Positions 13,526 through 43,463 of a DNA stretch of 64,000 nt are shown piece after piece. A model generated the notes under the pieces. That model was not told the origin of the DNA. It was given only the letters and a program-made list of their open reading frames with translations, and did no database searches. Source of the stretch: Synechococcus sp. UW105 (GTDB lineage Bacteria > Cyanobacteriota > Cyanobacteriia > PCC-6307 > Cyanobiaceae); assembly GCF_900473935.1 (NCBI RefSeq), contig NZ_UCNN01000030.1, positions 310,001-374,000 on the forward strand, read 5' to 3'. Within the stretch, counting starts at the first letter, position 1, and each line of letters opens with the position of its first letter. Position numbers and translations under genes: made by a program.

Positions 13526-14161
13526 TCAGCGCTGGGGCAAATGGGTGATCACCAGATGACGCTGCGCATCAAGCGTCAACCAGCCCTGATCACGGAGCTG
13601 ACCAACCACGCGCGTCACGGTCACTCGTGTCGTACTGAGGGCACTTGCGATCTCCTGATGGGTGAGTCGCAGACCAACGCGTAGGCCTTGATCGCAAGGC
13701 TGCCCGTAGTCCTGGGCCATCAGCTCGAGGAAGGCACGCACGCGATCTTCCACCCGCCTCAAGCCGAGAAGTGAAAGCATGAACTCTGTCTGACGCACAC
13801 GTGCAGCCACCGCATTCACCATCAGCATCGACAGATCTGAAGACTGAGAAATCTCCTCGAGCGTGAGGCAAATCAGATCGCAATCGGTGAGTGTGATGGC
13901 TTCATAGGCTTCCACCATGCTCAGCGGTTCACCAAACGGTTCGTTCGGACCCACAAGACCCAGGAGCAACTCATCGCCCTGCTCAGTCACGGCACCAAGT
14001 TTGACCATGCCATTGGCAACGATCCAGAGGCTGTTCCTCAACAAAGGAATCGAGCTGCCGGCAGTTAGATGAACCTGATTTTTTTTCGAAACTCCAGATT
14101 GCAACATCTGAGGCATTGTCTGCTGGGAGAGAACGCCGGGTCGTGTAGGTGTTGCAACCAC
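13526..14161 (-). CDS. Crp/Fnr-family transcriptional regulator, PtrA-like
   Basis: A 211-residue regulator with an N-terminal beta-roll sensor domain (about 25-110) and a C-terminal winged helix. The recognition region is LRLTHQEIASALSTTRVTVTRVVGQLRDQGWL (given in part), the usual Crp helix-turn-helix. The phosphate-binding cassette Arg of cAMP-binding members is not visible (FGEPLSMVEAYEAITLT), so cyclic nucleotide binding is doubtful. Position next to a PstS-like gene suggests the PtrA type, a Crp-family activator of phosphate-stress genes in marine Synechococcus; the assignment by context is inference. A 16-bp palindrome lies 12 bp before its start. Confidence 0.85.
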   Translation of the reverse strand: MVATPTRPGVLSQQTMPQMLQSGVSKKNQVHLTAGSSIPLLRNSLWIVANGMVKLGAVTEQGDELLLGLVGPNEPFGEPLSMVEAYEAITLTDCDLICLTLEEISQSSDLSMLMVNAVAARVRQTEFMLSLLGLRRVEDRVRAFLELMAQDYGQPCDQGLRVGLRLTHQEIASALSTTRVTVTRVVGQLRDQGWLTLDAQRHLVITHLPQR

Positions 14162-28154: not shown

Positions 28155-29165
28155 TCATTTCCAGCCCGCTTCTGCCATCATCCGGATCGCCATCGGCTGA
28201 TATTGGCTCAATTGCGAGATGGTGACCGAGTCCGGGGTAAAAGCACCGAAACGGGTGACATACCCAGAGGTATTGTTAACAGATACTGGGTGCTCAAACG
28301 TTGGCAAAGCCAACAAGGCACTACCCTTTGGCGAGGCTAAAAATTCAACCAATCGGATCGCATTATTCTTATTTTTTGAGTACTTAGCTACGGCAGCAGC
28401 GCTAATATTAACGTGGGCAGGATCAGGGATAAAAACTCTAACGCTATTCGCTAATTTCTGATCCTTGTTGCCATTGACGCCGGCCAGCATACGGGAGACG
28501 TAATAGTGATTAACAATCCCAATCCCACATTGACCCTGAGCAACCGCACGGACCAATGAGATATCACCAGGGAAGTAGGGCTGGGAAACATTCGAGATCA
28601 TGCCTTTCAACCAGGCCTTGGTAGCATCTACACCACGCAGCGCAATCTGGTCCGCCACGAGAGACTGGTTGTATACATTCTGGCGATTACGCAAACAAAC
28701 CTTGTTCTTTAAAAAAGGTTTTGACAAGTCTGCATAAGTCTTGAGCTTGGACATTGGCACGATCTTGGAGTTAACCACCATCACGCGCAGTCGCCTTGAC
28801 ACTCCGAACCAACGTCCGCTGGGATCGCGATAACGAGCAGGAACGTCTCGCTTCAAGGCAGCAGAATTAATCGGCGCAAATAAACCAGCCTTGGCCGCAT
28901 TATTAATGCGAGCTGCATCCACCAGAAGGATCACATCAGCCTTGGAATTAGATCCCTCACGGCGCAAACGCTCAACAAGGGATGCTCCCTTACTCTCCAA
29001 CAAACGAACTTTGATGCCAGTCTGATCGGAAAAAGCCTTGAAGACCTGGCGATCAGTGTTGTAGTGACGACCGGAATAAACACGAACTTCTTCAGCGGAG
29101 GCAGCGGGGATTGCGAGCGAAGCCGGCATCAGCAATGCGAAAAAACCCGTCAGGCAGCGATTCAT
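28155..29165 (-). CDS. idiA: Iron(III) ABC transporter periplasmic binding protein (IdiA/FutA type)
   Basis: Iron-deficiency-induced Fe(III)-binding protein of 336 residues. The signal peptide is MNRCLTGFFALLMPASLAIPAASA, from the ATG at 29165. The mature protein starts EEVRVYSGRHYNTDRQVF, whose His/Tyr, together with the Tyr pair in GIGIVNHYYVSRML, matches the tyrosine-rich iron site of the FutA family. The membrane and ATPase subunits (futB, futC) are not adjacent. It is divergent from the PiuC-like gene with 97 bp between starts. Base composition turns visibly more AT-rich from this gene rightwards to about 35.9 kb. Confidence 0.93.
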   Translation of the reverse strand: MNRCLTGFFALLMPASLAIPAASAEEVRVYSGRHYNTDRQVFKAFSDQTGIKVRLLESKGASLVERLRREGSNSKADVILLVDAARINNAAKAGLFAPINSAALKRDVPARYRDPSGRWFGVSRRLRVMVVNSKIVPMSKLKTYADLSKPFLKNKVCLRNRQNVYNQSLVADQIALRGVDATKAWLKGMISNVSQPYFPGDISLVRAVAQGQCGIGIVNHYYVSRMLAGVNGNKDQKLANSVRVFIPDPAHVNISAAAVAKYSKNKNNAIRLVEFLASPKGSALLALPTFEHPVSVNNTSGYVTRFGAFTPDSVTISQLSQYQPMAIRMMAEAGWK

Positions 29166-29262
29166 CGAAAAATCGGGGGAGGATGTTACCATCAAAGCCA
29201 CGATCCGAGCAAAAAACGAATCATTAGGCACATTTCAAGCGTACAAAAAGCACGAACCATAA

Positions 29263-29931
29263 GTGGACAGTCTACAAATTGAGATCTTCACTGCCAAGGA
29301 ATGCGAAGCCATTCGCCACAAGCTTGAACATCTGGAGGAAGGCCAATGGGTCGATGGCAAGCAAACCGCTGGGAGCCATGCCAAGGACATCAAAAAAAAC
29401 CTACAGCTGAAGCCATCAGATCCACTGACGGAGTCGATCGTTGCTGAGGTCCACAGCAGATTAAAAAAACAGATGGCGATCAAAAGCTTTTGCTTACCGA
29501 AAAAATTACATCACACACTGATCAGCAAAACAACCAGAGATGGTGGCTACGGCCAACACGTAGACAATGCATTCATGACAACTGGTAGGGCGGATATTTC
29601 CTATACGGTGAGCCTAAGCAACGAGAAAGAGTACGAGGGTGGCGAACTCGAGATCCTCGACACCACCGAAACGAATACCTACAAGTTAAAGGAAGGCCAC
29701 GTTTTCATTTACCCAAGTTGCTACTTGCACAGTGTCAGACAAGTGCGTGCGGGTACACGCTACGCCTGCGTTGGCTGGATCGAAAGTTACATGGCAAGCC
29801 ATGAGATGCGCATGAATCTATTTAACCTCGAATCAGGAGCACGTTATCTTCTGGCGGAAAGAGGGCGCTCGGAGGCTCTAGACAGAATCTTCCTGGCACA
29901 TGCCAACATTCTTCGAACACTTGGAGGATGA
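29263..29931 (+). CDS. piuC: Fe(II)/2-oxoglutarate-dependent hydroxylase (PiuC-like)
   Basis: A 222-residue PKHD-type hydroxylase. The iron-binding triad is visible as GGYGQHVDNAF (His-X-Asp) and YPSCYLHSVRQVRAGTRYACVGW (distal His, and the Arg that holds 2-oxoglutarate). PiuC proteins are typically Fur-controlled and sit beside iron uptake genes, as here beside idiA. Start is GTG at 29263. The substrate is unknown; a link to siderophore or outer-membrane iron uptake is known only by association. Confidence 0.9.
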   Translation: MDSLQIEIFTAKECEAIRHKLEHLEEGQWVDGKQTAGSHAKDIKKNLQLKPSDPLTESIVAEVHSRLKKQMAIKSFCLPKKLHHTLISKTTRDGGYGQHVDNAFMTTGRADISYTVSLSNEKEYEGGELEILDTTETNTYKLKEGHVFIYPSCYLHSVRQVRAGTRYACVGWIESYMASHEMRMNLFNLESGARYLLAERGRSEALDRIFLAHANILRTLGG

Positions 29932-30003
29932 GTTAAAAGCAGCATTCGTAGACAGACGCCAGGCAGAAGATCACTTAGAATTGAATTTTAAACTTTGGTT
30001 CTG

Positions 30004-30240
30004 ATGCCAAACAAAACTGCGCTCGGTCTATTGATTGCAGCCTCTGCATTGATGGCAACTGGCGCCCCTGCAAACGCAGATTTACCCAGTGGCGAACTCG
30101 AAGGTGGTTACCAGGAGTGGACCACTGATCAAGATCTCGATGCGGAAGCAACGAAAGATGCAAAGCTCAAGAAGACGGAAGCCGCGGCTGAAGATGAAGG
30201 AGTCTGCATCCCAATCGGAGAAGGCGAAAACTGCTGGTAA
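30004..30240 (+). CDS. Small secreted acidic protein
   Basis: A 78-residue protein with a clear Sec signal peptide (MPNKTALGLLIAASALMATGAPANA) and a short acidic mature part containing two Cys near the end (EGVCIPIGEGENCW). ATG at 30004; a TTG three codons upstream is less likely. It sits between piuC and the porin gene and ends at a strong terminator. I do not recognise a family. A periplasmic role in iron stress is suggested only by position. Confidence 0.6.
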   Translation: MPNKTALGLLIAASALMATGAPANADLPSGELEGGYQEWTTDQDLDAEATKDAKLKKTEAAAEDEGVCIPIGEGENCW

Positions 30241-30260
30241 GCCGACGATTTCAAGCAGAA

Positions 30261-30286
30261 GAGGGGGGCGTTAGCCCCCCTCTTTT
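30261..30286 (+). terminator. Intrinsic terminator after the small secreted protein gene
   Basis: GAGGGGGGC / GCCCCCCTC, a nine-base-pair perfect stem with loop GTTA, followed by TTTT. It begins 21 bp after the stop at 30240. Confidence 0.85.
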
Positions 30287-30304
30287 AATGCCAAATTTCA
30301 GCAC

Positions 30305-30331
30305 AAAAAAAAGGAGAGGCATAGCCTCTCC
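30305..30331 (-). terminator. Intrinsic terminator of the porin gene
   Basis: On the minus strand GGAGAGGC, TAT, GCCTCTCC is followed by eight T residues. It lies 26 bp after the porin stop and faces the terminator of the convergent gene. Confidence 0.88.
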
Positions 30332-30356
30332 TCCAATCGAAATTCAGATCGAACGA

Positions 30357-32084
30357 TCAGAACTTGAAGGTGGTTTGCACCAGGCCACCAAAGGTGCTGA
30401 AGGTGTCGGCACCATGACCACCGTACTTGTTGCTAGTACCGGTCTTTTCACCAAAGGGACGGCTGAGGTAGAAGAGAGCTGGTGTGATGGAAACGTTATC
30501 AGTGACTTTGAAGTCGTAATAGAGTTCAAAAGCCATGTTTCCGTCATCAGGAGTACCGTCTTTCTGAGCGGTTTTCCACTGAGGCTCGCCAACAGCGAAG
30601 CCAAGACGGTTGCCTTGGATGAAGGCATCCTTCCAGTTCAGACCAACGAGCCAACCCTGGGATTGGGTGCGACGGGTGTCCTTCTTATTAGCCTTTGTCA
30701 GGGCGTCAAATGCGGCTTTGGTGTAGACGCAATTCTGAGACGCCTTGGCATACTTGCCTTTGCAGACAAAGTCTGGATTGTTGAAGGCAGTGATGCTCCA
30801 ACCAGCACTGATGCTGGGGATCCAACCACTTTCAGAAGGCTGCCAGAACGCATTCAGGTTGAACTGATTAGCGTCATCAAAACCACCCGAAGACGCACCA
30901 AGAGGTGTGCCGGCGCCACCAACGGTCATGCCCCTTTGTGAGTAGGCATAGGCAGCAGAAACTTGCCACTGAGCGTTGCCGTAGGCAATCTGGCTGAGGA
31001 ACTTACCTTTGCTGGTGTCGGTCATGATGCCGCCACCGTCACGAGCATTGGCCTTCATGCCGTTTTTGGCGACATAGTTGGCACTGATCTTCAGCTTGGG
31101 ATCACTGAAGTTGGAGTTACGATTGCTGATCCAGTTGATACCAGCACCGGGTGAAGTGCTTGCACCATAGGCGCCGTAATAGCCGCCCAGCTTGAACTGC
31201 TTCAGCACATGCCTGTAGACGCTAGGTGTAGCGGCAAGCATGTAGTAGTTTTCGATCAGGGGACCAACGTAGGCCCTGAAATCACTACCGATGGGGAACT
31301 CATACCAGAGCTTGTCAATCTTCAGATAGTTGGCGCTGCTCTTGGAAGCTTCAATCTGGGTTTGCTTCTTGGTGTAGCCACTACCAGAGAAAGCGTTCGT
31401 ATTGAAATTACCCGTTCTGAGGCGGGTGTAGAGCAAATCCTTACCCGTGAAGCTGGTATTCAGGTTCAGGGTTGCGCGGTAGGAGAAGGTGAACGCCGTG
31501 TCACCTAGGTAGTCATTGGTGTAGAGAGGCTTACCATCTTTGTAGGGGGTCTTGCCGTCCTTATCCGTTTGATAGGCAAAGAGATTGTCGGTCTCATCAC
31601 CACCGTAAGAGGTGGCGCCCATGGTCATTTCGACCTTACCGGTGAGCTTGGTGGTGGTAGAGAACTGGGTGGCTTCCAGTTCGCCAACGCGAGCTTCCAG
31701 ACCGTCAACGCGGCCCTTGAGGATGGCGAGTTCACGCTCGAACTCTTTCATCAGGCGCTTCAGCTCGTCGGTCACTTCAGTGATCCGGTCGAGGCAAGCG
31801 TTCAGCAGTGCGGCCGCTTCAAAGCGGGTCATCGCACGGTTGCCGCGGTAGGTGCCGTTCGGGTAGCCGGCGACGCAGCCGTAGCGCTCGACCAAGTTGG
31901 ACAGAGCTTGGTAGGCCCAGTCGGTCGGATAGACATCCGAGAACTGGGTGATGCTGGTGACCTGCTCGCCAGAAGCGGCGTAGTCAGACACACCGTTGAT
32001 GTTCAGGTCGCTGGCGTTTGCAGCCACAGGAGCCAAAAGGCCCAAGGCAGCAGGAGCAACCAGCAATTGCTGGAAGAGTTTCAT
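30357..32084 (-). CDS. SLH-domain outer-membrane porin (cyanobacterial Som/OprB type)
   Basis: Major cyanobacterial-type porin of 575 residues. Order: signal peptide (1-24, MKLFQQLLVAPAALGLLAPVAANA), a single SLH domain (about 40-100: FSDVYPTDWAYQALSNLVER, then YPNGTYRGNRAMTRFEAAALL) that anchors to the cell wall, a short coiled coil (about 105-140, MKEFERELAILKGRVDGLEARV), and a C-terminal beta-barrel ending in aromatic TTFKF. The ATG at 32084 has GAGGA seven bases upstream. Such porins are the general solute channels; some are iron-regulated. Placement among iron genes and a Fur-like site at 32124 suggest that here. Confidence 0.93.
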   Translation of the reverse strand: MKLFQQLLVAPAALGLLAPVAANASDLNINGVSDYAASGEQVTSITQFSDVYPTDWAYQALSNLVERYGCVAGYPNGTYRGNRAMTRFEAAALLNACLDRITEVTDELKRLMKEFERELAILKGRVDGLEARVGELEATQFSTTTKLTGKVEMTMGATSYGGDETDNLFAYQTDKDGKTPYKDGKPLYTNDYLGDTAFTFSYRATLNLNTSFTGKDLLYTRLRTGNFNTNAFSGSGYTKKQTQIEASKSSANYLKIDKLWYEFPIGSDFRAYVGPLIENYYMLAATPSVYRHVLKQFKLGGYYGAYGASTSPGAGINWISNRNSNFSDPKLKISANYVAKNGMKANARDGGGIMTDTSKGKFLSQIAYGNAQWQVSAAYAYSQRGMTVGGAGTPLGASSGGFDDANQFNLNAFWQPSESGWIPSISAGWSITAFNNPDFVCKGKYAKASQNCVYTKAAFDALTKANKKDTRRTQSQGWLVGLNWKDAFIQGNRLGFAVGEPQWKTAQKDGTPDDGNMAFELYYDFKVTDNVSITPALFYLSRPFGEKTGTSNKYGGHGADTFSTFGGLVQTTFKF

Positions 32085-32123
32085 GAAGGTCCTCACACAA
32101 AAGCGCATTAAGCGCTGCGCAGA

Positions 32124-32138
32124 AGATAATCATTGGCC
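32124..32138. promoter_or_regulatory. Fur-box-like site upstream of the porin
   Basis: AGATAAT, C, ATTGGCC compared with the 7-1-7 Fur box TGATAATnATTATCA: six of seven matches in the left half and four of seven in the right. It ends about 40 bp upstream of the porin ATG, where a repressor site would be expected. Only moderate similarity. Confidence 0.35.
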
Positions 32139-32491
32139 CGGGCCCTGGTTAGAACAAAAACAACAACGTGGGTCCCAAGGCTTAACAACACCTCGCCTCA
32201 ATTGACCGCCCCTAAAGGAGCATTTGATACGAAGCCAGGGATGGGCAGCGTTTCGATGGGGCTGGATGCGCCAAAGCTCCTATGCACCGATTGATCAAAG
32301 CCTGCTTGGTGCTCCTCGGAGTGCAGGTGCTGGTTGGGCTGATGCTTGTGAGACAACCCACACAAAACCCCAGACTTCCAGTCTCGCAGCAAAGTCCCTA
32401 GTCGCAGAGGGGTTTTGGCACGAAAAGGTGTCGCATAAAGCCCACCAAGGCCGCCCATTGAGCACAGAGGCAGCCGCAACAAGGCATTGAT
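32139..32491. other. Intergenic stretch without a supported gene
   Basis: Short open frames on both strands cover parts of this stretch, but none has a start with a ribosome-binding site, a signal peptide or a recognisable family. I read it as the divergent promoter region between the porin and the Crp-family regulator at 32569. Confidence 0.5.
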
Positions 32492-32510
32492 ATTGAGAAT
32501 CGCTCGCGAG
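32492..32510. promoter_or_regulatory. Fur-like half-palindrome (distal site) before the Crp-family regulator
   Basis: The left half reads ATTGAGAAT, identical to the half-site of the perfect palindrome at 43443; the right half is degenerate. It forms a 10-bp inverted repeat (TATTGAGAAT ... ATTCTCAATA) with the proximal site at 32540-32549. Confidence 0.4.
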
Positions 32511-32529
32511 AACAGCCTGGTTCATGTAT

Positions 32530-32548
32530 ATTGCAATGGATTCTCAAT
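32530..32548. promoter_or_regulatory. Fur-like site (proximal) before the Crp-family regulator
   Basis: ATTGCAATG, G, ATTCTCAAT: the right half is a perfect ATTCTCAAT, the left half matches at five of nine positions. It ends 20 bp upstream of the start at 32569, well placed for repression. Together with the site at 32492 it suggests iron control of this regulator gene. Confidence 0.45.
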
Positions 32549-32568
32549 AGCTTTAACGGTTTCTCGAC

Positions 32569-33162
32569 GTGAGCTTCCGCTTCTTACCTGACGACCCCAG
32601 TTCATCGATCAGGATCCCCTCTGGCCAAACGGTCCTGATCAATAGTGATGACCATTCAGACTGCATGAAGCTGAATGTGCTGGAAGGGATCGCCAGGGTT
32701 TATTGCCCATGCGAGGAAACCGAGGGCATGACCCTGGCCTTCCTGCAAACTGGGGACCAACTCAGAACAGACTGCCTCTGCAGCGAAGGTGTCTGCGTCG
32801 AAGCGTTGACAGACCTGCGCTTTGAAACCAAGTCAAACGTTCCATCCAACACGGGTTACGACTCTGTGAATGAATGGACCCTGCAACTGTTGCGGATCAG
32901 GCATCTCGGCCAAGCCGAACATCGTCTGCATGCCTTGCTGAGCTTGCTTGTCAACAGACTTGGCAAACGCTATGGCGAATGGTGCAATCTCCCTTTCCGG
33001 TTAACCCATGAACGAATCGGTGAATTAATCGGCTCAACACGAGTGACATCGACTCGCCTGATGTCGAAATTACGCAATGGCGACATGATCGTGACCAGCG
33101 CGAGCAAACAGGAGATCAAGCTCTCGCCCCAGTTGATCGACTCAAGCCCTATTTCATTCTAA
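32569..33162 (+). CDS. Crp/Fnr-family transcriptional regulator
   Basis: A 197-residue protein from GTG at 32569 (the GTGAGCTTCCGC start). The N-terminal sensor is short and poorly conserved and contains four Cys in the segments VYCPCEETEG and DCLCSEGVC, which could bind a metal or a cluster. The C-terminal winged helix is evident: FRLTHERIGELIGSTRVTSTRLMSKL. No cAMP-binding cassette is visible. Fur-like sites immediately upstream and a ferritin gene downstream suggest a role in metal homeostasis (inference). Confidence 0.8.
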   Translation: MSFRFLPDDPSSSIRIPSGQTVLINSDDHSDCMKLNVLEGIARVYCPCEETEGMTLAFLQTGDQLRTDCLCSEGVCVEALTDLRFETKSNVPSNTGYDSVNEWTLQLLRIRHLGQAEHRLHALLSLLVNRLGKRYGEWCNLPFRLTHERIGELIGSTRVTSTRLMSKLRNGDMIVTSASKQEIKLSPQLIDSSPISF

Positions 33163-33204
33163 AAGTGAACGATATCTCTCACTCAAAATATTGCTATTCA
33201 GACA

Positions 33205-33462
33205 ATGCACAAAAACAACTATAATCACCTGATTTGGTATCAGGAAAAGCTAGCCACAAGGCATAGCTTATGCGACAACAACAAACTAAGATCCAGACTG
33301 GCGAATGAGTTGCTTAAAATCAACCAAGAGATTCTTGGCAACTGTCTTGTTGAGGACAGCAGCAAAATCAGCCTAGAGAAACTGTTTGAAAACGAGAAGC
33401 AAAAACGTAGCAGTCTTAGGCTGTTCTCTGGGTTTGGCCAGCGCGAATCTCTCCGTCGATAA
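33205..33462 (+). CDS. Hypothetical small protein
   Basis: An AT-rich 85-residue frame ([20 protein letters not shown] and onward), charged and mostly helical by appearance. It follows the Crp-family gene by 40 bp and its 3' end overlaps the convergent ferritin gene by 47 bp. No family recognised. It may be real but could be a chance frame. Confidence 0.35.
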
Positions 33463-33994
33463 TCAACAGGCCAGTCGGATCATTCTTGGCAAAACGAACG
33501 CGTCCAGAGATATAGGCGTATTGGTCTTCAGACTGAGTTTGCTTTTCAACTAGGGGGTCGAGGAACACAGTTGTACGTGTATCGCTTTCCCTTTCTGCGA
33601 TTTCATACACATGTTGAATCGAACTTGTGGTGTCCGATTCAATTTTAAATGCATTATTAACCAATTCCTCCAGAGAGTCCCATGCCTGCCTTGGCCTGTC
33701 GAGGGAATCAAGGGCAGTAGACTGTCCACGCGCAATCAAATATTCGGAAAATTGCACGGCATGCAACTTTTCATCGACTGACTCTGCAGCAAAAAACTTG
33801 TAGAAACCCGAAAGCTCATGTTCAGCACACCAAATCGACATGGCAAAATAAGCCATTGAGGCTTGGAGCTCAAGATTCAGATGCTGTTGTAGAGCAGAAA
33901 CAAGGCTCTCACTCATTGGCTCAGCAGCATACCGTCCATTTGGACCCGTGATCAATTGCTGACCAGCGGTGGATGGGAAGGCAATGTCTGTCAT
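33416..33994 (-). CDS. ftn: Ferritin (SynFtn-like)
   Basis: Iron-storage ferritin of 192 residues from the ATG at 33994 ([14 protein letters not shown]). The four-helix ferroxidase core is recognisable: [30 protein letters not shown], then [12 protein letters not shown] (ExxH, about Glu75/His78), and [16 protein letters not shown] in the fourth helix. The C-terminus [15 protein letters not shown] and the overall pattern closely resemble the prokaryotic, animal-like ferritin SynFtn described from a coastal marine Synechococcus (recalled resemblance, not an alignment). An N-terminal stretch of about 25 residues precedes the core. An inverted repeat at 34012 sits in its promoter. Confidence 0.92.
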
Positions 33995-34011
33995 AAGCAA
34001 CTTCAGCGCGA

Positions 34012-34038
34012 ATCATTTGATACTACATCAATAATGAT
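34012..34038. promoter_or_regulatory. Inverted repeat between ferritin and the Cys-rich peptide gene
   Basis: ATCATTTGAT, five bases, ATCAATAATGAT: two arms that are reverse complements apart from a two-base insertion. It is 18 bp upstream of the ferritin start and about 60 bp upstream of the peptide start, so it could be a shared operator. AT-rich dyads of this type resemble Fur- or Crp-family sites. Confidence 0.35.
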
Positions 34039-34098
34039 GGCCGATAAGTGAGGCGTCAAGTAACAAAGCGCACTCTTGTGCGATATCGACCATCTATA

Positions 34099-34293
34099 AT
34101 GAGAGTCAATAGCAAAGCGAAGCGACTCGTGCCGATTTCTGATGGGCTTGGTATCGCGCAGACAGACCCAACAACGACAAGCCAGGGCGCAAAAAGAACC
34201 AACCTTCAACCGTCAAGCCATAAAAAAAAGGGATGCAAACGATCCAAATGTTCCAAATGGAAGGGAAGCAAATGCAAATGTGGTCGTGAGTAA
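34099..34293 (+). CDS. Lys/Cys-rich small peptide
   Basis: A 65-residue frame from ATG 34099 (upstream ATG at 34048 also possible, 81 residues). Its last 23 residues, KKKGCKRSKCSKWKGSKCKC then GRE, carry four Cys among many Lys. The spacing (C-x4-C-x7-C-x-C) could bind a metal ion, somewhat like a minimal metallothionein, though it is not a known family to me. The gene lies head-to-head with ferritin and just before a convergent Crp-family gene. Real coding status is unproven. Confidence 0.4.
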   Translation: MRVNSKAKRLVPISDGLGIAQTDPTTTSQGAKRTNLQPSSHKKKGCKRSKCSKWKGSKCKCGRE

Positions 34294-34297
34294 CTGA

Positions 34298-34915
34298 TTA
34301 ATCGATCAATTGACCACAGAATCGGTTATGCCGATTCATCAGCTCTTCAGACACAATCAGTCCTTCGCCATTCGCAGATAGATCTAAAATTCCATGTTCT
34401 CTGAGCGCGAGCATGTAGCGAGTAACGGTTGAACGGGTGCAGCCCAATAAATTAGAGATTTTTTCGTGACTTAACAAAAATGGTAAGAAATACTCCTCTT
34501 TTCTCCTAAAGCCAAAGCGTGATGTAAGAGTACAAATCAAACGCTCAATCCTCAAAGAAGTCGATTTCGAGGTCACAATCATATTCATAATCAAAGGCCA
34601 GTTTCCGAATGTATTTAGGTGACAATTGCAATTCGGATCAAGTTCACGCTCCTGATCCGAGAGACACAAAGCCAGCTCGGAATACGTTAGGGCCTCAATC
34701 CTTACGTCGAACTCCTCATAAAAAAGGGCTGATATCCTTAATTTATTTTCTGCGTAAAAACCAACAGTGCTCGACTCGTCCGTAAATTTATTGTGAAGAG
34801 CTAAGCGAACAATCCCTTTGTTGATCAAGAGCAAATAGTCTTTATTGGCAACACCGGGCTCAATTTCCTCGAGCCTGAGTGTTTGAGCTCGTTTAACAGT
34901 GAGCGAACGTATCAA
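34298..34915 (-). CDS. Crp/Fnr-family transcriptional regulator
   Basis: A 205-residue protein with a degenerate sensor domain and a C-terminal winged helix, FLLSHEKISNLLGCTRSTVTRYMLAL. Cys residues occur in CNCHL within the sensor. Like the regulator at 32569 it lacks the cAMP-binding cassette. The sequence is AT-rich compared with flanking housekeeping genes. It flanks the ferritin/peptide pair on the far side from the other Crp-family gene, so the storage gene is bracketed by two related regulators. Confidence 0.8.
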   Translation of the reverse strand: MIRSLTVKRAQTLRLEEIEPGVANKDYLLLINKGIVRLALHNKFTDESSTVGFYAENKLRISALFYEEFDVRIEALTYSELALCLSDQERELDPNCNCHLNTFGNWPLIMNMIVTSKSTSLRIERLICTLTSRFGFRRKEEYFLPFLLSHEKISNLLGCTRSTVTRYMLALREHGILDLSANGEGLIVSEELMNRHNRFCGQLID

Positions 34916-35004
34916 AAGGCCTAGCTTGCTATATATATTTCAGCAGACTCAAATCAACTACGAAGAATCATTTGATCATGGCAGGCGTGATCAATGATAC
35001 AAGG

Positions 35005-35205
35005 TTAGAGTTTTTCGATTTTCATCCAAAGCACCTGAGAGGCTTGATGCTGCTCGGTCAATAACTCATAGAATTCATCCGTAAGCGCTTGTGCACCTTG
35101 ATTATTCTCGTCTAGGCTGAGATTGCTGACACGGTGAATACACCAGTCGGTGAGTCGTGTGATCTGCTGTATGCGTTTTATTTTTGGGCAATCCGTAAAG
35201 TCCAT
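35005..35205 (-). CDS. Hypothetical 66-residue protein
   Basis: MDFTDCPKIKRIQQITRLTD and onward, ending QASQVLWMKIEKL; helical and soluble by appearance. No family is recognised. It is preceded by about 90 bp of AT-rich sequence after the Crp-family gene. Coding character is moderate. Confidence 0.4.
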   Translation of the reverse strand: MDFTDCPKIKRIQQITRLTDWCIHRVSNLSLDENNQGAQALTDEFYELLTEQHQASQVLWMKIEKL

Positions 35206-35581
35206 GCAAGGCCTTTAATCGAATCCGATTCTTGCATTGTTTGTCGGTGAGCGGTCAATCACTGCTACCCACTCTTGGCATAACAAGCACAAGTAAGAGG
35301 GTCATTTCTTACATCGCCAAAACCAAGCGATTGGATGGCAAAAGATCTGGCCTTCCTGTCAAGCGATCTTCTAAGTTAACTGCCCAATCTCTACACTTTG
35401 CAGCATCTCAATCTTGCCCAGCACAGCGAAACAGGATGATCGAACTGTTGAAACCAATTCATTTCGATCAAGTTGATTTTGATCCAGGAGGTGGAAAGCC
35501 CAATCACCATCCATCATCTACAAAATACCCACCTCTTGATCGATCAAGATACAGCAGCGATGCTTCGAAGAAGCCATCTCT
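35206..35581. other. Intergenic region without a supported gene
   Basis: A 124-codon plus-strand frame beginning TTG at 35232 has no ribosome-binding site and a Ser/Lys-rich composition without recognisable features. I see no RNA gene. The notable item is the palindrome at 35582, listed separately. Confidence 0.45.
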
Positions 35582-35616
35582 TTTATCTTCTCTAATCAAT
35601 GATTAGAGAAGATAAA
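35582..35616. repeat. 35-bp perfect palindrome
   Basis: The left arm TTTATCTTCTCTAATCA (35582-35598) is followed by a single A and its exact reverse complement (35600-35616). No T-tract follows on either strand, so it does not look like an ordinary intrinsic terminator. It lies in a gene-poor AT-rich stretch at the right end of the accessory region. Confidence 0.8.
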
Positions 35617-35728
35617 TCAACCAAGTGCTGCGCCTTGATGGGCAAGCATTTCTCAAGTCAATTGAAGGGACTTACGACGACAATATATTTATTTGATACG
35701 CGTTATTTCCAATCACAGCAAAAGAAGG

Positions 35729-35863
35729 ATGATCAAGAAATGGCTGGTCATTTCACAAGAATGGCGGCAAGAAGTCGCGATCTCCGCCACAGCAGCAATC
35801 AAGAAGGTTCAGCAAACACGTGCAAAACTTATTAAGGACGCGACAACAAGAAGAAACGGCTAG
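35729..35863 (+). CDS. 44-residue basic amphipathic peptide
   Basis: ATG at 35729 preceded directly by AAGAAGG, a good ribosome-binding sequence though close. It encodes MIKKWLVISQEWRQEVAIS and on to TRRNG, with regular spacing of hydrophobic residues and Lys/Arg suggesting one or two amphipathic helices. It ends 41 bp before the large membrane protein gene on the same strand. Too short to be sure; no family recognised. Confidence 0.4.
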   Translation: MIKKWLVISQEWRQEVAISATAAIKKVQQTRAKLIKDATTRRNG

Positions 35864-42998: not shown

Positions 42999-43367
42999 TC
43001 ACTCTTCGTCTTCGTCAGCACCGCCGACAGGAACGAGACGAATCTGCTTACGGCCCAGCTTGATTTCAAACTCGTCGCCAACTTGCAGGTCGAGCATGGC
43101 CGTGTAGGCCTTGCCGATCAGCAGGTTGCCATTGCCTTGAACGGTTGCTTTGTAAGAGAGCTTGCGGCCACCTTTGCCCACACCAGCAGTGCCACCACCA
43201 AGATCAATGCCTTTGGCGTTGAGCAGCGCTTCGTAGAACGCAGTGAAGTTGACTCGCTGACCACCCCCCTTTTTCTCAGAGACGTAACCACAAGCCGTTG
43301 CCAAGTCACTCTTGGAGACATCGCCCAGATCTTTCACCTTCGCCAGAAGGTCTGCACCAGTCAGCAT
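42999..43367 (-). CDS. cyAbrB family transcriptional regulator
   Basis: A 122-residue cyanobacterial AbrB-like DNA-binding protein, a group that regulates carbon/nitrogen balance genes. N-terminal MLTGADLLAKVKDLGDVSKSD, the middle FTAFYEALLNAKGIDL with GGGTAGVGKGGRKLSYKATV, then the C-terminal AbrB fold (GNLLIGKAYTAMLDLQVGDE, then FEIKLGRKQIRL). The acidic tail is GGADEDEE. Its upstream region holds a perfect Fur-like palindrome, suggesting that iron status affects this regulator. Confidence 0.93.
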   Translation of the reverse strand: MLTGADLLAKVKDLGDVSKSDLATACGYVSEKKGGGQRVNFTAFYEALLNAKGIDLGGGTAGVGKGGRKLSYKATVQGNGNLLIGKAYTAMLDLQVGDEFEIKLGRKQIRLVPVGGADEDEE

Positions 43368-43442: not shown

Positions 43443-43463
43443 CATTGAGAATAATTCTCAATG
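43443..43463. promoter_or_regulatory. Perfect 21-bp Fur-like palindrome upstream of cyAbrB
   Basis: CATTGAGAAT, A, ATTCTCAATG. The core TGAGAATnATTCTCA differs from the 7-1-7 Fur box TGATAATnATTATCA only by one symmetric change per half. It lies 76 bp upstream of the cyAbrB ATG and 290 bp from the plus-strand lipoprotein start, so cyAbrB is the more likely target. The ATTGAGAAT half-site recurs at 32492 and 32540. Confidence 0.65.

Follow-up and report, generated by a model that had tools for sequence, protein, structure and literature searches.

Our analysis concerns an island of iron genes, and in particular its regulator gene crp1, at positions 28155-34915 of a window of 64,000 nucleotides from Synechococcus sp. 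UW105 (contig NZ_UCNN01000030.1), a member of the Cyanobiaceae with a genome of 2.66 Mb. An earlier reading made from the letters alone (the sequence-only reading) had listed seven genes here, and all seven were confirmed at their coordinates. The first, idiA/futA (28155..29231, minus strand, with a likely start at the ATG at 29165), encodes a periplasmic Fe(III)-binding protein with Pfam domains of the SBP type, which is 64-68% identical to its counterparts in genus mates and has a match in 136 of the 151 Cyanobiaceae genomes that make up our family sample. Divergent from it lies piuC/ybiX (29263..29931, plus), whose product NF003974 of NCBIfam (248 bits, cut-off 143) assigns to the PiuC/YbiX type of PKHD hydroxylases, which depend on Fe(II). 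Between piuC and the porin gene there is a secreted-like protein of 78 residues (30004..30240, plus), for which a Pfam and NCBIfam scan returned zero matches and which is kept in our 60-locus synteny table. The SLH/OprB porin (30357..32108, minus) is a SomB-type iron-uptake porin by NF033921 (281 bits, cut-off 100). Then come crp1 (32569..33162, plus), encoding a Crp/Fnr-type regulator of 197 residues identified by an HTH_Crp_2 match above cut-off, alignments and a family-wide search; a ferritin gene (33416..34000, minus), convergent with crp1 in most genomes; and crp2 (34298..34915, minus), encoding a second, fast-evolving Crp/Fnr-type regulator. The ferritin is an orthologue of SynFtn from Synechococcus CC9311, whose entries are its top matches in the PDB (6gka, E 1.4e-73, residues 18-192). 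Every large protein of the island is a member of a known superfamily.

How stable is this arrangement? Gene order read around idiA in 60 other genomes, of both Synechococcus and Prochlorococcus, shows the block idiA, piuC, small protein and porin in nearly all of them. The pair crp1 and ferritin is a second, separately conserved block: the two genes lie within 5 kb of each other in 84 of the 95 genomes that have both, with a median gap of about 340 bp and in convergent orientation in 80. The two blocks are joined in many freshwater relatives and in the window's genus, where the second Crp gene joins them as well, and they are apart in Prochlorococcus, where crp1 and ferritin lie away from the idiA block and yet side by side; overall, crp1 is within 15 kb of idiA in 50 of 107 genomes. 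In another genus, g5, idiA is surrounded by the same genes in a different arrangement. The linkage on which the sequence-only reading had built is thus real, and the genes are not scattered without linkage in related genomes; its term "self-contained module" was too strong, since there are two separate blocks and the ABC permease and ATPase genes of IdiA lie outside the island. It might be argued that small genomes in general keep their gene order and that the linkage is inherited without any shared regulation. We consider this very improbable, because the crp1-ferritin pair persists in varied surroundings (next to idiA, next to a gene for an ABC ATPase, or by itself) and the operators described below recur at iron genes that are not linked. 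The ATPase gene, of ferric/phosphonate type, stands about 245 bp upstream of ferritin in Prochlorococcus, directly upstream of it in the crp1-ferritin loci there; of the 93 ferritin loci read in total, 49 have it. Crp1 and idiA also seem to be lost together: each of the four near-complete marine genomes examined that are without Crp1 (G112, G413, G488 and G073) lacks the orthologous idiA too, three of them retaining merely a paralogue of 43-44% identity. As a separate observation, one genus mate (G482, C1:1628001-1646000) carries a diverged group of idiA, crp1, ferritin and second Crp gene together in a freshwater-like arrangement, and the diverged Crp1 has Cys-Ala-Cys in place of Cys-Pro-Cys.

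Most genomes of Synechococcus, Prochlorococcus and Cyanobium (120 of the 151) encode a member of the family to which Crp1 belongs. When 386 cyanobacterial genomes were searched with a profile, all close relatives fell in the Cyanobiaceae, with a wide score gap to the rest; matches outside the family were weak and mostly at the level of the helix-turn-helix (HTH), and 10 candidate stretches in viral contigs yielded no confirmed case. The feature that sets the protein apart is a set of four cysteines, Cys46 and Cys48 (encoded within 32704-32712), Cys71 (32779-32781) and Cys76 (32794-32796), all on the plus strand and invariant in 52 aligned orthologues. The motif CPC[EQ]ET occurs in 117 of 118 orthologues and CxxGxC in all 118, and the pattern CxC...Cx4C is retained even where identity falls to 46-48%; genome G119 has a second copy that seems to break the rule, but this copy looks decayed.

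Crp1 carries a winged HTH of the Crp type (PF13545, 33.7 bits, cut-off 27; PF00325, 26.2 bits, cut-off 21). Its AlphaFold2 model (predicted local distance difference test score 84.6) matches NtcA best among PDB structures, with Z 17.6 over 177 residues, and shows both the N-terminal beta-roll and the dimer helix that belong to the CRP fold. It belongs to none of the named families that we compared. PF00027 gave no match, and the cassette region of cAMP-binding CRP reads CSEGxC in the orthologues; the NtcA family TIGR03697 scored 31.1 bits, from the HTH alone, against a cut-off of 245; and PtrA, the Crp/Fnr-type phosphate regulator of marine Synechococcus, which resembles Crp1 in length and HTH and is its top match in NCBIfam, scored 36.9 bits against a cut-off of 300 (NF053664). 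FNR of Escherichia coli or Aliivibrio fischeri shares the Crp fold (structural matches with Z about 14) and cysteines suited to a cluster. The cluster cysteines of FNR lie at the N-terminus, plus one more; in Crp1 the first 31 residues are free of cysteine and all four cysteines fall in the beta-roll. In our reading of the CRP alignment, the CxC pair would sit in the flap between strands beta4 and beta5, and the Cx4C pair would replace the phosphate-binding cassette for cAMP. In this beta-roll strands 4 and 7 are paired, so that the two cysteine pairs would come to lie together. A Crp-fold protein so built, its four cysteines lying at or near the position of the nucleotide pocket, would be a sensor design for which we know of no precedent.

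We infer that the four cysteines form a metal or iron-sulphur site, by which Crp1 could sense iron. They might instead hold zinc in a structural role, or act as a thiol redox switch, linked to thioredoxin and dependent on light, with iron acting through the control of crp1 by Fur alone. This second possibility deserves serious attention, although we would not bet on it: CxC and Cx4C could give two disulphides or hold zinc, the cells are phototrophic, and the sequence leaves the metal unnamed, but the gene is closely linked to iron genes and four soft ligands take the place of the ligand-binding cassette, which is the usual place for a sensor in the Crp fold.

We next consider the promoters. 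All short dyads in the upstream regions were enumerated, with no prior motif. At idiA/piuC the enumeration returned ATAC-N8-GTAT together with ATCA-N2-TGAT, and at the porin GTAT-N6-ATAC; crp1 and ferritin shared GAGA-N5-TCTC, and ferritin had TGTA-N8-TACA in addition. Read jointly, these are two elements. The first, operator A, is GTATCA-WW-TGATAC, an even-centred site of the Crp/NtcA class. With at most two mismatches it occurs upstream of idiA in 26/64 cases, of piuC in 26/51, of the porin in 20/41 and of ferritin in 20/48, against 0.3-0.6% in shuffles, 0-6% for scrambled control motifs and 2/56 upstream of crp1 itself; the enrichment survives removal of the window's genus. Genome-wide, the operator with at most one mismatch exceeds its reversed-pattern control in many marine genomes, while in GC-rich freshwater genomes (those rich in guanine plus cytosine) both are near zero. 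In the window, copies lie in the porin promoter (32217..32230, GGAGCATTTGATAC, two mismatches to GTATCAWWTGATAC, with CATTTGATAC kept in the genus), in the ferritin promoter (34010..34023, GTATCAAATGATTC on the minus strand, one mismatch) and, as an operator-A-like site, upstream of crp2 (34965..34978, GAATCATTTGATCA, three mismatches). These are the three matches in the whole window when three mismatches are allowed; the number is ordinary (2.2 expected) and the placement, each in a promoter, is unusual.

Which protein would bind operator A? High-light Prochlorococcus have just two HTH_Crp_2 proteins above the curated cut-off, NtcA and Crp1, so that among Crp-type proteins the operator should belong to one of these. 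If it were NtcA, the island would be tied to nitrogen status and Crp1 would regulate something else. The resemblance is considerable: GTA-N8-TAC is the core of NtcA sites, the recognition helices are nearly identical (STRVT[IV]TR against STRVTSTR), and TGTA-N8-TACA with at most one mismatch is enriched at ferritin (24/48) and the porin (19/41). However, the inner bases TCA/TGA of operator A are 73-87% conserved and are absent from the sites upstream of ntcA, which are plain GTA-N8-TAC. NtcA, whose targets concern nitrogen, also leaves the adjacency of crp1 to ferritin and idiA unexplained; its sequence alignment with Crp1 is limited to the HTH region, and the four-cysteine site is no feature of it. 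We regard NtcA as an unlikely explanation of the island as a whole, although it is the chief competitor of Crp1 for operator A. Because the ntcA sites lack the inner bases and Crp1 alone is linked to iron genes, we prefer Crp1, which is probably the protein that binds operator A, judging from these sequence features.

The second element, operator B, is TTGAGA-N5-TCTCAA, or TGAGA-N5-TCTCA in its shorter form, which is odd-centred and has the 7-1-7 geometry of Fur sites. With at most one mismatch it is found upstream of crp1 in 38/56 cases and of ferritin in 27/48, against about 1.5% in shuffles, and it is nearly absent at idiA (1/64), piuC (0/51) and the porin (0/41). In GC-rich relatives the crp1 copy is often TTGCGA-N5-TCGCAA; the combined pattern TTG[A/C]GA-N5-TC[T/G]CAA with at most two mismatches occurs there in 34/38 cases against 2.8% in shuffles. 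A canonical Fur box (TGATAATNATTATCA, two mismatches allowed) was likewise found at none of idiA (0/64), piuC (0/51) and the porin (0/41). An operator of Fur-type geometry stands at crp1 and ferritin, and the idiA, piuC and porin promoters have a Crp-type operator instead. The sequence-only reading had placed Fur-like sites at 32492, 32530 and 32124. The first two correspond to conserved elements in the crp1 promoter, at 32494..32508 (plus, TGAGAATCGCTCGCG, with TATTGAGAATCG kept in the genus alignment) and 32532..32546 (minus, TGAGAATCCATTGCA, an inverted copy seen in the same alignment); the two make up an 11-bp inverted repeat without mismatch, TATTGAGAATC/GATTCTCAATA, that is largely retained across eight aligned genus sequences, though neither fits the full 7-1-7 Fur consensus. 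The site at 32124 was rejected as it is not conserved among the eight. At ferritin, an operator-B element lies at 34100..34114 (TGAGAGTCAATAGCA; TTGAGATTGACTCTCA in genus mates), between that gene and the conserved motif of a microprotein described below.

The geometry of operator B suggests Fur as its binder. Could it be an autoregulatory site or the site of a third factor? The centre N5 varies in sequence, and a strong operator B was looked for upstream of fur and not found, which makes the step from Fur to operator B a matter of inference. Nevertheless, odd-centred palindromes of 15 bp are of the Fur-family 7-1-7 class and Crp dimers use even-centred sites, a perfect TGAGAATAATTCTCA is present in the genome, and a strong Fur protein is encoded in every genome tested. 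We judge a binder outside the Fur family rather unlikely and take Fur as the putative ligand of operator B in what follows.

Divergent from ferritin there is a further gene (34048..34293, plus), which encodes a microprotein with the C-terminal sequence CKRSKCSKWKGSKCKC. The C-terminus follows CKKxKCSxWKGGxCxC, with four invariant cysteines and an invariant tryptophan; a scan of Pfam and NCBIfam gave zero matches. The motif is divergent from ferritin at 62 of the 76 loci with enough sequence and was seen in about 100 loci overall. Entropies at the three codon positions are 0.31, 0.28 and 1.25, and since the third positions are thus far more variable than the first and second (four times), the microprotein is a real gene. 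Its cysteines and lysine-rich sequence suggest a role in binding metal or nucleic acid. The microprotein was missed in the sequence-only reading, as were the Crp-type operators before porin, ferritin and crp2 and the Fur-like element in the ferritin promoter.

Taken together, we propose, with slightly better than even confidence, that Crp1 is a clade-specific regulator of iron homeostasis in picocyanobacteria that acts under a Fur-family protein, through operator A and with an iron or redox input at its cysteines. When iron drops, the Fur-family repressor would leave operator B and crp1 would be expressed. The Crp1 dimer would then bind GTATCA-WW-TGATAC before idiA/piuC, the SomB-type porin and ferritin, and would raise idiA/piuC and the porin while iron is scarce, activation being the most likely sign. 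Ferritin, bearing both operators, would be tuned by both. As a second input, the four-cysteine site could let Crp1 read iron, iron-sulphur supply or redox state directly. The sequences themselves show the pairing of crp1 with ferritin, the conserved cysteines, the modelled CRP/NtcA fold and the distribution of the two operators over the genes; binding of Crp1 to operator A and of Fur to operator B, iron at the cysteines and the direction of control belong to the model. The suggestion in the sequence-only reading that Fur signals to a second regulatory layer fits the Fur-geometry operator at crp1 and the Crp-geometry operator at idiA/piuC, porin and ferritin, leaving aside the word "self-contained"; that reading was right in the main, but what is of interest here is narrower than it supposed. 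The broadest statement, in which picocyanobacterial iron uptake and storage run through a clade-specific four-cysteine Crp sensor of iron or iron-sulphur clusters under Fur, with Fur acting indirectly at idiA, piuC and the porin and with the microprotein included, we offer only tentatively and think less probable than not in full.

Several points weigh against this proposal. In freshwater relatives of high GC content operator A is weak (idiA 4/21 with three mismatches allowed), and in the window itself the copy between idiA and piuC is degenerate (29218..29231, GAATCATTAGGCAC, four mismatches; genus mates have a three-mismatch copy at this position). The operator core was first spotted by eye, in the window and in ferritin promoters of Prochlorococcus, before the family-wide test, although the dyad enumeration later recovered it without a prior motif. 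Several freshwater genomes carry idiA without Crp1, so the association of the two is not absolute. The recognition helix and GTA-N8-TAC site shared with NtcA, and the fur upstream region lacking a strong operator B, belong on the same side.

Published data can be compared with the proposal. IdiA and the iron-uptake porins rise together under iron limitation (PMC10912551), and ferritins like that of CC9311 reach higher abundance at low iron (PMC9723758); our model fits both the shared response and the odd rise of a storage protein. In the accessible literature no link to a Crp regulator adjacent to SynFtn is reported, nor does the open literature name a Crp regulator as a neighbour of ferritin or idiA; an earlier mention in subscription papers is possible. 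As far as we have searched, four things are new to the open literature: the four-cysteine Crp subfamily, the fact that it is strictly paired with ferritin, the map of the two operators, and the microprotein.

Picocyanobacteria are the most abundant phototrophs on Earth, and iron limits marine photosynthesis. For Synechococcus and Prochlorococcus, idiA and the uptake porins serve as field markers of iron stress, with Fur control assumed. If a Crp-type regulator does stand between Fur and these genes, the markers would read a two-step signal, iron plus cross-talk from redox or nitrogen. Crp1 is small, conserved and present in cultivable strains, and is therefore directly testable.

The sequence-only reading had called the island AT-richer, and the GC content computed along the window bears this out: 49.7% across the segment against 58% for the whole window and 57-64% in the flanking genes. 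In genus mates the same segment is AT-rich too (GC 45-46% against 55-57%), so the locus has had this composition for a long time and shows no sign of recent import, and we rejected recent horizontal import as the cause of its AT-richness. Divergence from genus mates forms a mosaic, with identities of about 65% for idiA, 46-51% for piuC, 48% for the small protein and 34% for crp2, against 82% for crp1 and 85-87% in the flanks; the divergent alleles may reflect either replacement or fast evolution.

The sequence-only reading also spoke of two unusual Crp-family regulators. Both are present, but Crp2 does not rank beside Crp1: it is about 34% identical to its genus-mate counterpart, and Crp1 82%. 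Like the other second Crp proteins of these loci it is without the four cysteines, and its top NCBIfam match is PtrA at 28.9 bits, far from the cut-off of 300, so that neither Crp1 nor Crp2 is PtrA. A further Crp-family protein, possibly PtrA itself, is encoded at 13559-13786 (minus), near tRNA-Pro.

Some smaller features remain. A conserved protein of 66 residues (35005..35205, minus) has nine homologues, which lie close to the second Crp gene in most loci and in several genera. The open reading frames at 35232-35606 and 35693-35863 had zero protein homologues among the relatives examined, and an open reading frame of 85 residues overlapping the end of ferritin (33205..33462, plus), found here and in strain UW140 alone, is doubtful as a gene. 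Finally, the genome's best Fur-type site is a perfect palindrome at 43445-43461, TTGAGAATAATTCTCAA, which precedes by about 80 bp an open reading frame for an AbrB-like protein of 122 residues (42999-43367, minus).

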